DNA from: Thermoplasmata archaeon
Lineage (GTDB): Archaea; Thermoplasmatota; Thermoplasmata; Lutacidiplasmatales; SKW197
Direction of reading: 5' to 3'
NCBI GenBank assembly: GCA_038874435.1
Contig: JAVZCK010000014.1
Span: 1 to 50,081 of the forward strand
Length of the DNA: 50,081 bases
Below are positions 23,869-38,129 of this stretch, piece by piece. Position 1 is the first letter of the stretch, and the number at the start of each line of letters is the position of its first letter. A model generated the notes under the pieces. That model was not told where the DNA came from, did not search any database, and saw nothing but the letters and a program-made list of their open reading frames with translations. The translations under genes were made by a program, and so were the position numbers.

Positions 23869-26094
23869 TTAGTGGTGCATCATTGCAATTTGCTCACCAC
23901 TCAGTTTTTCTTCCTCCTTGTACTTGTGCACGAAGAAAACACCAAACTTTGCTTTCTCAATTGAATAAACTTTTGTTCCGAGCAGATATTCAACTACATC
24001 CCAGATGTCATCAGAATTCATTATCAAGAAACCTGTGTTTATACTCTGGAGTTTGTGCTTGACTTCACTGAGCACCAGATAAGAACTTCGCACGGGGATT
24101 GACGCACGTTTGAAACTACCCTCTATACTTGCAAACATCTCCATTGCTACATCTATTCGTTTTCGTTCAGGCACCACATTCAAGATTTCCACTTCTGCAC
24201 TGTATTCTTTAGCAACTAAGTGTGCAATCTTGATGGCAATGCTCAAATCTGAACCGAGTTTATTCACAAGCGTCACTTTGTTTGGTACTTTGCCACGTGG
24301 CGGCTTGTAGATTATTGTATCTGTCTTTATTTTCTTTAGGAGCGCTGGTAGATGCGTTCCTAAAATAAAGCCCTTCTTAAATCTGCCTCTCCACCCAAGC
24401 ATCACAAGGTTTGCTTCAACCTCTTCCGCAAAATCAGCAATGGCATCTACAAAAGAGTGGGAGACACCTATAAAGTAATCTGATGAGATATCATACTTTC
24501 TAGTAATTGTCCTTAGCTTTTCAAGCTTCTTTACGGTGTCCTCTGCGTCTCTGTAACCGATGCTTTTGATTGAAACTTGCCTTGGAACCTCAATTACTGA
24601 GTAGAGAAGAACATCTCCCTTGTTGTTCCTTGCAATTTTGGAGGCCATGTGAACCATCGGCTCCACCCTGTTTTCTGGGGGCACACAGACAACGACACTG
24701 TATTTTTTCCTGTCTATCCTAATCATCTCTCCTAGCACACTCCGTTCCTCCCTCTCCTCTACCCTCTTCTGCCCGCCCCCAAAATAATGCACTATTGCTC
24801 CGATCTCAATCCAAATAATTGCGAGATACCAAGCTACCTGGCTAAAGGAGTATATCATTACCGCTATGATGAACATAGATATTATCGCAAGGATTGGAAT
24901 AAGCGGGAAAAAAGGCACCCTGAAGGGCTTTTTCACATTTGGCTCCCCGTATCTTAGCAAAATCCAGGAAATATTTGTAAGGATGAATAGCAACAAGAAC
25001 ATAATGTCCGCTGCAGCCACAATATCCCTAATTGGAAGGACAATTGCAATGAATCCTATCAGGCACGCGGAAATCAATGTAGAGATGTAAGGAGTTCGTA
25101 ATTTGGGATGCACTTTTCCGAAGAGCTTTGGGAATGTACCATCCCTTCCCATTGCGAACGAAACCCTTGCTGAGGAATAGATTGTGGCATTCAAAGTGGC
25201 AGTTGTTCCAATTAACAACCCTATAATCATTATGCCAGCACCGTATTTAGGAAGTACTTGCGAGAACCCACCAATTACAGCAAACTCACCCATTGCAGCA
25301 ATTTCATTAACAGGACTTATTGCTAGAAGTGCAAAAAGGAGCCCAACATAAAGGAGCATTACAATTCCTACCGAAAGTAAAATGGCTCTGGGAATGTTTT
25401 TCTCAGGGTTCTTTACTTCCTCTGCGGACTGGGCAATTATTTCATAACCTTCAAAGGCAATGAAGAGGACGCCCATGGCAACAAAGATGCCGTTTACATC
25501 AGGAAGAAATGGCGTGAAATGGCTCCATGCGTCGGGATTGCGAAAGAGAGCAAAAACACCCGCAACGACAAAGAAAATGATTATCGAAATCTGGGAAAGG
25601 GTGATTATAGTTTCTGTTCTACCAGTGGTTTTTGAGCCCAGAATGTTGATTGTGGTGAACACAGTTAGCACAACGAGGATGAGCAATTGTTTGAAAAACG
25701 GAAAATCAATTCCCACGCCATAAATAGTGATGAGCCAGTCAATTCCCATTGCAAAGACCACTGTGTAAAATGCGCAAGCGATTGTATGGCCAAACCATGA
25801 TATCCAGCCACTAACAAAATCAAAGGGCTTGGGTAAGCTCTTTTTAATCCAAAGGTAGCCCCCTCCTGCTTCGGGATAACTCGCACCCATTTCTGCATAG
25901 CCCAGGGCAGTAAGCAAGGTAACAAGGGCATTAAGGAAAATCACAATAATTGCAGCAGGGCCCGCCAACTCTATTGCTGTCCCTGCTAGAATAAAAATGC
26001 TTGCTCCTGTCATCGCTCCCACACCTATCATTGTTGCTTCTAGGAGCCCGAGGTCCCTACGAAAAGAAAGCTTTGGTGTGAGTTGACTTGGCAT
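23869..26094 (-). CDS. APC-family amino-acid permease with two C-terminal universal-stress domains
   Basis: Residues 1-440 form a 12-TM amino-acid/polyamine permease: LLEATMIGVGAMTGASIFIL in TM1 (with the unwound GAMTGASIF), and FIAFEGYEIIAQSAEEVKNP in the middle. Two UspA-like nucleotide-binding folds follow, beginning near 462 (YSVVVCVPPENRVEP) and near 608 (KVTLVNKLGSDLSIAI). The first contains LVMLGWRGRFKKGFILG (canonical G-x2-G-x9-G(S/T)), where a bound nucleotide may gate transport. The architecture (about 740 residues) is known in archaea. Substrate is unknown. A 9-bp perfect inverted repeat flanks the TATA-like box of its promoter (26109-26142), suggesting repression. Confidence 0.88.
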   Translation of the reverse strand: MPSQLTPKLSFRRDLGLLEATMIGVGAMTGASIFILAGTAIELAGPAAIIVIFLNALVTLLTALGYAEMGASYPEAGGGYLWIKKSLPKPFDFVSGWISWFGHTIACAFYTVVFAMGIDWLITIYGVGIDFPFFKQLLILVVLTVFTTINILGSKTTGRTETIITLSQISIIIFFVVAGVFALFRNPDAWSHFTPFLPDVNGIFVAMGVLFIAFEGYEIIAQSAEEVKNPEKNIPRAILLSVGIVMLLYVGLLFALLAISPVNEIAAMGEFAVIGGFSQVLPKYGAGIMIIGLLIGTTATLNATIYSSARVSFAMGRDGTFPKLFGKVHPKLRTPYISTLISACLIGFIAIVLPIRDIVAAADIMFLLLFILTNISWILLRYGEPNVKKPFRVPFFPLIPILAIISMFIIAVMIYSFSQVAWYLAIIWIEIGAIVHYFGGGQKRVEEREERSVLGEMIRIDRKKYSVVVCVPPENRVEPMVHMASKIARNNKGDVLLYSVIEVPRQVSIKSIGYRDAEDTVKKLEKLRTITRKYDISSDYFIGVSHSFVDAIADFAEEVEANLVMLGWRGRFKKGFILGTHLPALLKKIKTDTIIYKPPRGKVPNKVTLVNKLGSDLSIAIKIAHLVAKEYSAEVEILNVVPERKRIDVAMEMFASIEGSFKRASIPVRSSYLVLSEVKHKLQSINTGFLIMNSDDIWDVVEYLLGTKVYSIEKAKFGVFFVHKYKEEEKLSGEQIAMMHH

Positions 26095-33859: not shown

Positions 33860-33932
33860 GGGCCGGTAGTCTAGTGGTTATGATGTCACGCTTACAACGT
33901 GGAGGTCGGCGGTTCGAATCCGCCCCGGCCCA
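33860..33932 (+). tRNA. tRNA-Val (anticodon TAC)
   Basis: The acceptor stem GGGCCGG (33860-33866) pairs with CCGGCCC (33925-33931), with discriminator A at 33932. The anticodon stem TCACG/CGTGG encloses the loop CTTACAA, with anticodon TAC. The T-stem GGCGG/CCGCC encloses TTCGAAT. No intron is seen and CCA is not encoded. An AATAATAAA-like box lies about 30 bases upstream. Confidence 0.97.
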
Positions 33933-33998
33933 CTGAAGCAAGATTTCCTGCGAAGTTTTATATAAAATGAGGTTATGATGTAGAGGAAGGTGTTGTTG

Positions 33999-35120
33999 AT
34001 GAAGGGAAAGAGAAGGAGGAAATCTAATGCAGAGAAACCAAAGGTTGCTGTGCTTGGTGCAGGACATGGTGGGCTTGCAATGGCTGCCCACATTTCAATG
34101 ATGGGTTTTGAAACAAGAATTTATACGAGAAACGAAGAAAGAATAAGGGCTATTCAGGAGCGGGGCGGAAAAATCGAACTCCAGGGAGTATTACAGGGCT
34201 TTGGAGATGTGTACGCAACGCACAATCTAAAAGAATGTCTGGAAGGTGTAGATCTGATAATGGTTGTGGTGCCTGCACCTGGTCATGCCTACTATGCAGA
34301 GCACTGTGCCCCTTTTCTTGAAGATGGGCAAATTGTTATTCTCAACCCTGGTCGAACAGGTGGTGCCCTTGAATTTGTAAACATTTTGAAGGCGAAGAAG
34401 TGCACTGCAGATGTGATTGTGGGCGAAGCTCAAACACTGATTTATGTTTCCAGGCATACAGATGTAGCACAAGCCCACATATTCCAGATTAAAAACACAG
34501 TGGCGTGTGCGACACTCCCGAGTTACAGAACACCTGAGGCATTGAGGATAATCAACAAAATTTTTCCACAATTTGTGCCATCCAGCAATGTGCTGGAGAC
34601 AAGTTTTGATAACATTGGTGCTATTTTTCATCCAGGCATCACATTACTCAATGCCTCCAGAATAGAAGATGAGAAATCTGACTTTGAGTTTTACATAGAA
34701 GGTGTAGGCCCTACAACATCCAGAATCCTTGAGGGAATGGACAACGAGAGGGTGAAGATTGCAAGGGCACTTGGAATCAGAGTCCACACCGCAAGGGAAT
34801 GGCTCTATCTTTCGTATGACAGTGCGGGAAGAACACTGTATGAGGCAATAATTGGAAATCCGGCCTACCGCGGTGTCCAAGCACCAAGAACCCTTCATCA
34901 TAGATATCTCTACGAAGATGTGCCATACAGCCTTGTGCCTATGGAGGAATTTGGAAAACTCACAGGTATTGAGACACCTGTTATCAGTGCAATGATCACC
35001 CTTGCCTCTGAACTCCTTGGCACAGATTTCAGGAAGGAGGGGAGAACACTGGAAAAGATGGGTGTTAAAAACATGAGTGTGAAAAAGATGAGAATGTACA
35101 TCACAACTGGAAGGTATTGA
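33999..35120 (+). CDS. NAD/NADP octopine (opine) dehydrogenase-family enzyme
   Basis: The 373-residue protein starts with a basic leader (KGKRRRKSNAEKPK), then the Rossmann fold VAVLGAGHGGLAMAAHISMM and DLIMVVVPAPGHAYYAEH. The helical C-terminal opine-dehydrogenase domain follows: IFHPGITLLNASRIE with the catalytic His, and ARALGIRVHTAREWL. Opine dehydrogenases reductively join a keto acid with an amino acid; homologues can have other substrates. The ATG at 33999 follows AGGTG by six bases; a GTG at 33990 is part of that purine stretch. A TTTTATATAAAA box lies at 33957-33968. It is the first gene of a three-gene operon with a cobalamin protein (one base apart) and an asparagine-synthetase-like protein. 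Confidence 0.85.
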   Translation: MKGKRRRKSNAEKPKVAVLGAGHGGLAMAAHISMMGFETRIYTRNEERIRAIQERGGKIELQGVLQGFGDVYATHNLKECLEGVDLIMVVVPAPGHAYYAEHCAPFLEDGQIVILNPGRTGGALEFVNILKAKKCTADVIVGEAQTLIYVSRHTDVAQAHIFQIKNTVACATLPSYRTPEALRIINKIFPQFVPSSNVLETSFDNIGAIFHPGITLLNASRIEDEKSDFEFYIEGVGPTTSRILEGMDNERVKIARALGIRVHTAREWLYLSYDSAGRTLYEAIIGNPAYRGVQAPRTLHHRYLYEDVPYSLVPMEEFGKLTGIETPVISAMITLASELLGTDFRKEGRTLEKMGVKNMSVKKMRMYITTGRY

Positions 35121-35121
35121 G

Positions 35122-36741
35122 ATGCGGAGAATTGTTGGTGCCACGCTTGGAAACTGCATCCATGTGATGGGCTTGCATAGGTTTCTTGAACTTGCTGCCT
35201 CGGTTGGCTATAAAACCGAGTTTCTTGGTCAGTGCATCCCTGTGGAAAAGATAATTGATTACTGTAAAAGAGAAAAGCCAGATATCGTGGCATTGAGTTA
35301 TCGTCTCACACCAGAATCTGCTGAACTAATTTTCAGGGAGATTAAGGATGCAAGGGAAAGGATGCAATTACCATGCATGTTCATTTTTGGCGGCACACCT
35401 TCAGTTGCAGAAATGGCAAAAGCATCAGGTGCATTTGATAAGGTATTTTCAAAAGAAAGCCCGATCGACATAATTGCCTTTCTTAAAGGTGTGGCTCAAG
35501 GTATGGCTAAAAAACCCAGAGCCCAGACACTCGCTGAACGAATCTCAGAGAGCTATCCCATGCCCCTTATCAGGCACCATTTTGGAAGACCCACACTTGA
35601 GGAAACTGTGGAGGGTGCTGGGAAAATTGCTGAAGCGGAGGTGCTGGACATTCTTTCAATTGGCCCAGATCAGAATGCACAGGAATTTTTCTTTGAACCA
35701 GAAAAAATGGATAAAACCCATGATGGTGCAGGCGGTGTGCCGTTGAGGAAGCCAGAGGACTTGAGTGCAATTTATGAGGCAAGCAGAAAGGGGAATTTTC
35801 CACTTGTGCGCTGTTACAGTGGAACCACACATCTTATGGACTGGGCAAAGTTGTTGAAGGAAAGAATCAATAATGCTTGGGGTGCAATTCCGATTTGCTG
35901 GTATAGCGAACTGGATGGAAGGAGTAAGAGAAGGTTGAGAGAAGCAATTGTTGAGAATATGGCTGTGATTAAGTGGCATGCTGAGAACGGAATCCCAGTT
36001 GAGGTAAACGAATCCCATCAATGGGCATTGAGGTATTGTTCTGATGTGATTGAGGTTGCAACTGGCTACATCGCAAGCTATATTGCTAAAAAGCTGGGAG
36101 TGAAGCACTATGTGATGCAATATATGTTTAACACACCACCTGGAATTTCTCCCGCTATGGATCTGGCAAAGATGCTTGCGAAGCTTGAACTTGTGGAGTC
36201 GCTTGCTGATGAGAATTTTGTAGTCTTCAGGATGGTACGCACTGGACTTGCAAGCCTTTCAGCAGATTTTGCAGTTGCCAAAGGACAAATGGCTTCCTCT
36301 GTTTTCTTTGCAATGACACTCAAGCCCCACATAGTGCATGTTGTAGGTTTCTCTGAAGGAGACCACGCAGCGATTGCAGATGAGGTTATAGAGAGTTGCA
36401 AAATTGCCAGAGGCGCGATAGAAAATGCATTGCTTGGATTACCCGACTTTAGCACTGATAGGAATGTCAAGGAGCGAAAGGAGAAGATTAAGAGTGAGGT
36501 AGCTGTGTTGCTTGATGCAATAAAAACCCTGGGTGATGGGAGCGAAGTCTCACTTACGAATCCAGATGTTATTGTAAAGGCAGTGAAGTTTGGATATCTG
36601 GATGCACCACAGTTAAAGGGAAGAGAATGTGTTCCTGGCAGGGATGTGACCAGAATAATCAATGGTGCCTGTGTTTCCGTTGACCCTGAAACAGGGGTAC
36701 CAGTTTCGGAAAGAGACAGGATTAGAAGGATTACGGGGTGA
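35122..36741 (+). CDS. Cobalamin-binding enzyme of unknown reaction
   Basis: Residues 1-130 are a B12-binding fold. The classical signature D-x-H-x2-G-x41-SxL-x28-GG is matched in spacing: H14, G17, then S59 and G90-G91. The Asp is replaced by Cys (NCIHVMG). The lower-ligand His is kept. Residues about 200-450 look like a TIM-barrel enzyme domain with motifs RCYSGTTHLMDWAKLL, PVEVNESHQW and YMFNTPPGISPAMDLAKML. This resembles barrels of B12-dependent mutases or methyltransferases, but no named family is recognised. It lies one base after the opine-type dehydrogenase, so the two probably act on one metabolite. The reaction could be a carbon-skeleton rearrangement or methyl transfer. Confidence 0.8.
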   Translation: MRRIVGATLGNCIHVMGLHRFLELAASVGYKTEFLGQCIPVEKIIDYCKREKPDIVALSYRLTPESAELIFREIKDARERMQLPCMFIFGGTPSVAEMAKASGAFDKVFSKESPIDIIAFLKGVAQGMAKKPRAQTLAERISESYPMPLIRHHFGRPTLEETVEGAGKIAEAEVLDILSIGPDQNAQEFFFEPEKMDKTHDGAGGVPLRKPEDLSAIYEASRKGNFPLVRCYSGTTHLMDWAKLLKERINNAWGAIPICWYSELDGRSKRRLREAIVENMAVIKWHAENGIPVEVNESHQWALRYCSDVIEVATGYIASYIAKKLGVKHYVMQYMFNTPPGISPAMDLAKMLAKLELVESLADENFVVFRMVRTGLASLSADFAVAKGQMASSVFFAMTLKPHIVHVVGFSEGDHAAIADEVIESCKIARGAIENALLGLPDFSTDRNVKERKEKIKSEVAVLLDAIKTLGDGSEVSLTNPDVIVKAVKFGYLDAPQLKGRECVPGRDVTRIINGACVSVDPETGVPVSERDRIRRITG

Positions 36742-36746
36742 GAAGC

Positions 36747-38129
36747 TTGACAGGCATTACTGGTGTTGTTGGCTCGCAGGATGAAGAGGTAGTTAAGGGA
36801 ATGCTGCAGAAAATTAACCACAGGGGAAAAAAACAGACGGTTTTTTCAGACAAAAACCTGGTTGTGGGTATTTGCAGGCATGAATCTGCAGATGCGCCTT
36901 TTTTTGAAAAATCTGGCATTTTGTGCGGTGTTGATGGCACCGCAAAACCAGAAGAACTTGCAATGGCTTTGAGGAATAAGTGTTTGAGGAATATTCCAGG
37001 CAGTTTTGCCGGGTTTTTTGCAGGCGAGAGATTCATTCTTTTCAGAGACCATTTTGGAGTTAAGCCAATGTATTTTGCTCTGAGCGAGGGAAAGCTATAT
37101 TTTGGTTCCGAAATAAAGTGCTTCCAGGGGCTGGACGCAGAAAGGGTTGAGTTTGTGAAGCCAGGAGAAATTATTCTCTGGGAGAACGGAAAAATCCAGA
37201 GAGAAAGGTATTATGTGCTGAGGACAGGAGAAAAGAAAATAAGTGCCGAGGAATGCATCTCTGGAATTCTGAGGTTGCTGAATGAGGGAGTCGCTTACAA
37301 TCTTTCCGAGGACACAGGAGCTTTGCTCAGTGCGGGCCTCGATTCTGCCGCAATTGTGTTTTTAGCATCTAAGCGAATAAAGAAACTCAACACATTCGTG
37401 GCTGCGTTCGAAGCTGGAAGTGAAGATGCCTTGCTCTCTGAAAAACTTGCGTCAGAACTCGGGCTTGAGCACACTGTGGTGGAATACGGGCTCAAAGAGA
37501 TGCTGGATGTGCTCCCTGAGGTAATTTATCATCTTGAATCCTTTGATTTTGCTCTCGTGAGAAGTGCAATTCCAAACTACATTGTGGTGCGGGAGGCAGC
37601 GAAGCATGTTCGAACCTTGCTTTCTGGTGAGGGCGGAGATGAACTCTTTGCTGGCTACTCCTACCTTGAGAACATTCCTGGAAACCTCAACTCTGAACTC
37701 AGGAAACTGCTTCACACTGCCCACAACAATGCCTTCCAGCGTGATGACAGGATGTTTGCTGCTCATGGTGTTGATTGCAGAGTGCCTTTCCTCCATCTCC
37801 CGCTTGTTGAATTCGCCTTTGGAATTCCATCAGAATATAAAATCCAGAATGGTGTGAGGAAATGGATTTTGAGGAGGGCGATTGAAAAAGCAGGGTTGCC
37901 AGATTACATCGTAAACAGGGAGAAACGGAAATTTTCAGATGGTGCTGGCTCAATGTTTGCAATTGAGGAGTATGTGGAAAACCAGATTTCAGACAGGGAA
38001 TTTGAGATTGCGAGAAAAGAGCTGAGATTTGTGAGAAACAAGGAGGAGCTTTTCTATTACAGGATTTTTTGCAGTCATTTTGATGGGATGGAACATCTGG
38101 TGGGAATTACTGAAAGACCAGAAAGATGA
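36747..38129 (+). CDS. Asparagine synthetase-like ligase with degenerate glutaminase domain
   Basis: The C-terminal domain has the AsnB synthetase motifs: PP-loop LLSAGLDSAAI (S-G-G-L-D-S in most relatives), LLSGEGGDELFAGY (about 295) and DCRVPFLHLPLVEFA. The N-terminal glutaminase domain is short (about 110 residues up to FRDHFGVKPMYF), and its nucleophile is lost. The TTG at 36747, five bases after GGGGTGA, gives M-TGITGVVG where AsnB has M-CGIAGVVG. Glutamine-binding N-G-E is D-G-T here. It may use ammonia or another amine, like beta-lactam synthetase. It overlaps no gene with this start; a GTG at 36738 lies within the ribosome site. It is last in the opine/B12 operon, so the substrate is probably that pathway's acid product. 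Confidence 0.85.
   Translation: MTGITGVVGSQDEEVVKGMLQKINHRGKKQTVFSDKNLVVGICRHESADAPFFEKSGILCGVDGTAKPEELAMALRNKCLRNIPGSFAGFFAGERFILFRDHFGVKPMYFALSEGKLYFGSEIKCFQGLDAERVEFVKPGEIILWENGKIQRERYYVLRTGEKKISAEECISGILRLLNEGVAYNLSEDTGALLSAGLDSAAIVFLASKRIKKLNTFVAAFEAGSEDALLSEKLASELGLEHTVVEYGLKEMLDVLPEVIYHLESFDFALVRSAIPNYIVVREAAKHVRTLLSGEGGDELFAGYSYLENIPGNLNSELRKLLHTAHNNAFQRDDRMFAAHGVDCRVPFLHLPLVEFAFGIPSEYKIQNGVRKWILRRAIEKAGLPDYIVNREKRKFSDGAGSMFAIEEYVENQISDREFEIARKELRFVRNKEELFYYRIFCSHFDGMEHLVGITERPER

Follow-up and report, generated by a model that had tools for sequence, protein, structure and literature searches.

What do an opine dehydrogenase, a B12 protein and a relative of asparagine synthetase make together? 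The three genes form one operon in a Thermoplasmata archaeon, in a stretch of 50,081 nucleotides that was analysed as a whole (the window). An initial annotation, made from the sequence alone, read them as a short pathway in which an amino acid conjugate is formed or reduced, then rearranged or methylated, and then amidated or cyclised. It knew of no described pathway with this set, and our literature searches found no published description of the three-family combination either. We favor a biosynthetic operon, with a probability of somewhat less than one half (about 0.45): an undescribed pathway in which an acidic amino acid and pyruvate would be joined as an opine, with a B12-dependent rearrangement and an amidation, to give a solute for osmotic protection.

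The operon in its host

The features are collected in Table 1. The coordinates and the spacing originally given hold up: three open reading frames on one strand, separated by 1 base (35121) and 5 bases (36742-36746), behind a single TATA box. The expected number of chance matches to TTTATATAAA in 50 kb is 0.08, and the one that is found lies some 33 bases ahead of the ATG that opens the dehydrogenase gene; it is likely the promoter of all three genes. The TTG start of the ligase agrees with the M-x-G-I start of its homologs, and an alternative GTG at 36738 gives a 4-base overlap with the B12 gene.

Table 1. Features of the operon, and ATP-grasp genes found beside the dehydrogenase/B12 pair in other loci
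Feature	Sequence	Position	Strand	Remarks
tRNA-Val (tac), directly upstream of operon	window	33860..33933	+	ARAGORN
TATA box TTTATATAAA, likely operon promoter	window	33957..33966	+	sole exact match in window
Opine dehydrogenase, predicted acidic-amino-acid / NADPH type	window	33999..35120	+	373 aa; PF02317 E=6e-49
Fused B12-binding domain + mutase TIM barrel	window	35122..36741	+	539 aa; Pfam, AF2 fold
AsnB-like amide synthetase (predicted), degenerate glutaminase domain	window	36747..38129	+	460 aa, TTG start; PF00733 E=2e-59
ATP-grasp gene	L060	4099-5013		
ATP-grasp gene	L070	9610-10515		
ATP-grasp gene	L080	9732-10760		
ATP-grasp gene	L092	2656-3654		
ATP-grasp gene	L099	5837-6850		

Synteny with a congener (genome G001; blastn against its locus L132) stops at about 33780, some 80 bases before the tRNA-Val, as if the operon region had been gained or rearranged at this tRNA. 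The G+C content of the operon is not unusual, and we found no plasmid homolog and no match to a defense system. No relative of the B12 protein appears in 60 genomes around the host, the single congener included, and among 390 genomes sampled from the host phylum there are three further full-length homologs (52-76% identity). All 4 genomes of the phylum with a full-length homolog carry the same three genes in the same order. The distribution in the host lineage is patchy, and because of this patchiness and of the synteny break it is likely that the operon was acquired. Elsewhere in the window, at 23869-26094, an amino acid permease is fused to a universal-stress-protein domain.

Recurrence of the three genes across phyla

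The B12 protein has at least 301 relatives in the GTDB genomes scanned (one genome per species), of which 80 loci were kept; gene counts are based on 83 loci in which the B12 gene was called. An opine dehydrogenase gene is present in 79 of these, nearly always as the immediate neighbor, and the AsnB-like ligase family in 36. The invariant core is therefore the dehydrogenase and the B12 protein, with the ligase as a common third member. In roughly half of the loci the pair occurs on its own, so amidation is not universal. Where the ligase is missing, five operons include a divergent ATP-grasp gene of the D-Ala-D-Ala-ligase type (Table 1), and none with the ligase does (a marginal P=0.05); an ATP-grasp enzyme may stand in for the ligase there.

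The kept loci belong to Bacteroidota, Bacillota (Thermoanaerobacter, Tepidanaerobacter, Tissierella and others), Methanoculleus and Thermoplasmatota, and further to Aminicenantes, Omnitrophota, Spirochaetota, Planctomycetota and other groups, spanning many phyla of both domains. By their genome titles, many of the hosts are anaerobic fermenters. In one Aminicenantes locus, genes of the TldD/PmbA metallopeptidase family lie directly behind the B12 gene (L094:3171-5019).

A shared pathway had been called unlikely if the three families were adjacent only in this genome. They are not. The gene order is conserved far beyond chance, and a search for co-occurrence finds the families in the same order in the host phylum and together in other phyla. 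The distance matrices of the three families are also correlated (Mantel r 0.82, 0.75 and 0.73; 0/999 permutations), as expected for genes inherited together, which is compatible both with co-evolution and with shared ancestry. Recurrence and correlation together support a shared short pathway.

Predicted chemistry of the three enzymes

Sequence profiles and predicted structures support the enzyme class given to each of the three proteins. The dehydrogenase scores 166 bits against the PF02317 cut-off of 30 and has both the Rossmann NAD(P) domain and the Octopine_DH helical domain; its closest solved structure is the Arthrobacter enzyme CENDH (1bg6, profile match E=9e-115). Among the operon dehydrogenases, the catalytic His/Asp dyad and the active-site Trp are kept (H211 in 77/77, D307 in 76/77, W268 in 77/77), and so are three specificity residues, Arg-111 (77/77), Gly-198 (76/77) and Arg-35 (77/77) in ArODH numbering, a register that we took from the profile alignment to 1bg6. 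The conserved residues of the window enzyme are R44, R119, G207, H211, W268 and D307. Six hot-spring enzymes of the ArODH-like subclass, characterized in 2024, prefer L-Asp and L-Glu with pyruvate; mutagenesis showed that Arg at 111 and Gly at 198 set this preference, and Arg at 35 is linked to NADPH acceptance as a proposed determinant (PMC10787698). Since all three residues match those of the characterized enzymes, it is well grounded to expect that the window dehydrogenase would couple L-Asp or L-Glu to pyruvate with NADPH, and the formation of a conjugate by reductive amination is supported by this comparison. One of the genomes sampled from the phylum has two tandem Octopine_DH-family genes (L126/L128) with no B12 neighbor in the fetched stretch, and these have Ser and Asn at the two positions that set the substrate preference.

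The B12 protein falls far below every family cut-off it was compared with (12.1 bits against 390 for glutamate mutase, TIGR01503), and Pfam recognizes a B12-binding domain (7e-10) and methylaspartate-mutase-E (5e-6). The AlphaFold2 model of the B12 protein (46 members, mean pLDDT 92.4) has the fold of an adenosylcobalamin (AdoCbl)-dependent mutase, a B12-binding domain and a mutase TIM barrel, and Foldseek ranks solved structures of glutamate mutase E first (E=1.6e-14, TM 0.59-0.66), followed by ornithine 4,5-aminomutase and then methylmalonyl-CoA mutase. The B12 motif at residues 12-17 reads CxHxxG for DxHxxG across the family (at least 97% of 83 members); the His and the Gly of the base-off/His-on motif are kept, and the Asp is Cys. 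Glutamate mutase interconverts 3-substituted and 2-substituted propionates, namely glutamate and 3-methylaspartate; the reaction passes via acrylate and a glycyl radical, with intermediates held by R66, R149 and E171 and by R100 and Y177 (PMC10947579). When the arginine claw (R66/R100/R149) and E171 are looked for in the B12 protein, R100 appears as Gln and E171 as Ala, in a profile alignment that is weak and unstable: the first one spanned the whole barrel, and with a larger mutase set only the C-terminal half aligned. By its predicted fold, the protein would be a new relative of the AdoCbl-dependent glutamate mutase in which the two parts are fused. Of the two activities first suggested, rearrangement is thus favored by the predicted fold, and methylation is not; we rejected a corrinoid methyltransferase, as the barrel matches mutases and only the B12 domain matches methyltransferase proteins. 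A supply of AdoCbl in the host is plausible, because it encodes a member of the CobA-type adenosyltransferase family and an AdoCbl-type ribonucleotide reductase, NrdJ; a search of the host for a PduO-type adenosyltransferase found none.

The N-terminus of the window ligase is M-T-G-I-T-G against M-C-G-I in AsnB, which puts Thr at the place of the catalytic Cys2 of the glutaminase. The earlier description of a ligase with no working glutaminase fits this protein but not all of its relatives: of 35 members, 30 have lost the Cys. The 5 that retain it group with a single Cys-less one in one supported clade, the Cys being absent elsewhere. An intact glutaminase in close relatives had also been held to speak against a shared pathway; its partial presence narrows the chemistry and does not break the pathway. 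The simplest reading of these sequences is that glutamine supply has been lost in many lineages, in which the amidating enzyme would use ammonia instead.

As to what this enzyme does, its score is below the curated asparagine-synthase cut-offs (227.6 bits of 267.1 for TIGR01536, 271.5 of 499 for PRK09431), and its AF2 model (pLDDT 93.3) fits AsnB/ASNS best (TM to query 0.87-0.89), with β-lactam and carbapenam synthetases (1mc1/1jgt) ranking lower (TM 0.71-0.80). The SGEGGDE motif has E295, as in AsnB, and not Tyr. At the positions aligned with Tyr345/Glu380 of carbapenam synthetase, which we take to be its catalytic dyad, the window ligase has Glu295 and Ala329. By sequence and by model, the ligase is AsnB-like and not β-lactam-synthetase-like. 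The AsnB-type residues, the missing Tyr/Glu dyad and the Cys kept in some members point to amidation with ammonia rather than cyclization, so that of the initial alternatives, to amidate or to cyclize, the first is favored.

A possible pathway, its alternatives and known systems

In the biosynthetic reading that we favor, the order of the steps, the mutase reaction, the exact product and the physiological role are those that we infer. The dehydrogenase would use NADPH to join pyruvate to L-Asp, L-Glu or a methylated analog of such an acidic amino acid, so that an N-(1-carboxyethyl) amino acid is formed. The B12 protein would act as an AdoCbl-dependent carbon-skeleton mutase, either on this opine or, one step earlier, on the still uncoupled amino acid. 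The AsnB-like synthetase would then activate a carboxylate with ATP and amidate it, with ammonia as the probable source in the window, given the loss of the glutaminase Cys; in other lineages this step would be absent, or an ATP-grasp ligase may serve. What results would be a small, zwitterionic and often amidated solute, with osmotic protection as its most likely use. An amidated opine would be nearer to a net-neutral zwitterion, which would suit a compatible solute.

The osmotic role comes from the neighbors of the operon in other loci. Thirteen mechanosensitive-channel-like genes are spread over 11 of 83 loci, each no more than 4 genes away from the B12 gene. Counting about 840 non-core genes across loci, opposite-strand neighbors included, such genes make up 13/446 near the B12 gene and 0/396 far from it (Fisher p=3e-4, uncorrected for shared ancestry, the loci being non-independent). 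A Na+/H+ exchanger is near the operon in L047, L065 and L076, and a two-domain trehalose-phosphate synthase/phosphatase in L058, L076 and L090. Such neighbors occur in a minority of loci, some of them from related Bacteroidota, and the window has none beside its operon. Because of these channels, exchangers and trehalose synthases, the operon suggests a product that serves osmoadaptation; a new osmolyte is predicted, from a pathway that is hypothetical. In L041, L043, L045, L046 and L063 the dehydrogenase is followed in the same operon by a small membrane protein of about 230 aa, a relative of mechanosensitive channels with a conserved terminal DLEG.

Which substrate would the mutase take? The opine itself is suggested by analogy, because it shares with 3-methylaspartate, a 2-substituted propionate, the unit CH3-CH(COOH)-X. 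The B12 protein might then be the first known opine mutase, an AdoCbl radical enzyme turning N-(1-carboxyethyl) into N-(2-carboxyethyl) Asp or Glu, to be amidated into a new class of compatible solutes of anaerobes and thermophiles. We know of no mutase of this class that moves an N-linked group in a 1,2-shift, and we hold this specific proposal to be rather unlikely. We put at the same level a fixed-order case of the favored pathway, in which the mutase comes first: a divergent glutamate mutase would convert glutamate to 3-methylaspartate, which is coupled to pyruvate and then amidated. The closest fold of the B12 protein is consistent with it, as are an AsnB-type enzyme, which works on an aspartyl carboxylate, and the taste of the characterized dehydrogenases for aspartate-like substrates (PMC10787698). 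It is disfavored by the apparent loss of the R100 and E171 equivalents, as far as the weak alignment goes, and by the 2 of 12 operon hosts searched that carry a genuine glutamate mutase E besides.

Opine dehydrogenases are reversible, and the operon could be catabolic instead, with the dehydrogenase oxidizing opines or glycated amino acids from the environment and the mutase feeding a fermentation. Fermenting hosts and the fermentative nature of the glutamate mutase pathway fit, but the dehydrogenase has the NADP(H)-type Arg, 36 loci have an amide synthetase that consumes ATP, other loci have osmotic neighbors, and no degradative neighbor recurs among the operonic neighbors surveyed; we consider catabolism improbable. 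More improbable still is a metal chelator, a tricarboxylic opine serving as an opine-type metallophore. N-carboxyethyl-aspartate is an aminopolycarboxylate, and related dehydrogenases make opine metallophores in other bacteria (PMC10787698), but amidation would lessen chelation, and the operonic neighbors include no recurrent metal transporter or regulator. Least probable, if chemically attractive, is a clavulanate-like route in which the mutase turns an N-(1-carboxyethyl) into an N-(2-carboxyethyl) amino acid, the substrate of β-lactam synthetase, and the ligase closes the β-lactam; the frequent loss of the glutaminase Cys and the related fold agree with it, and we rejected it on the absent dyad, the better match to AsnB folds and the five members that keep the Cys.

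Thermoanaerobacter and Caldanaerobacter, thermophiles that can be cultured, are among the carriers of the operon genes, which makes the chemistry of the favored biosynthetic pathway directly testable. How does it compare with known systems? β-lactam and carbapenam synthetases are likewise members of the AsnB superfamily with no working glutaminase that act on N-carboxyalkyl amino acids, but they have the catalytic Tyr/Glu dyad. Asparagine synthetase B shares the synthetase-domain fold, the SGEGxDE motif and, with some operon ligases, the N-terminal Cys; the operon ligases differ in a shrunken glutaminase domain, the mostly lost Cys and the opine/B12 setting. The characterized metagenomic opine dehydrogenases (mODH) have the same ArODH-like fold and the same R-111, G-198 and R-35, for L-Asp or L-Glu, pyruvate and NADPH, but were characterized as isolated biocatalysts, in a paper whose main text mentions no operon or gene cluster (PMC10787698); the operon would give acidic-amino-acid opine dehydrogenases a physiological role. 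Finally, glutamate mutase (GlmES/MutES) also combines a B12-binding domain with a TIM barrel, and gives the best fold match and a weak C-terminal profile similarity, whereas the B12 protein carries both parts on one chain, with an N-terminal B12 domain, CxHxxG in place of DxHxxG, and arginine-claw positions that, in the parts that align, seem not to be conserved. Only a few carbon-skeleton mutases that depend on AdoCbl are known, each with a chemistry of its own, and for this family of at least 301 GTDB relatives a near-invariant partner gene hints at the substrate.
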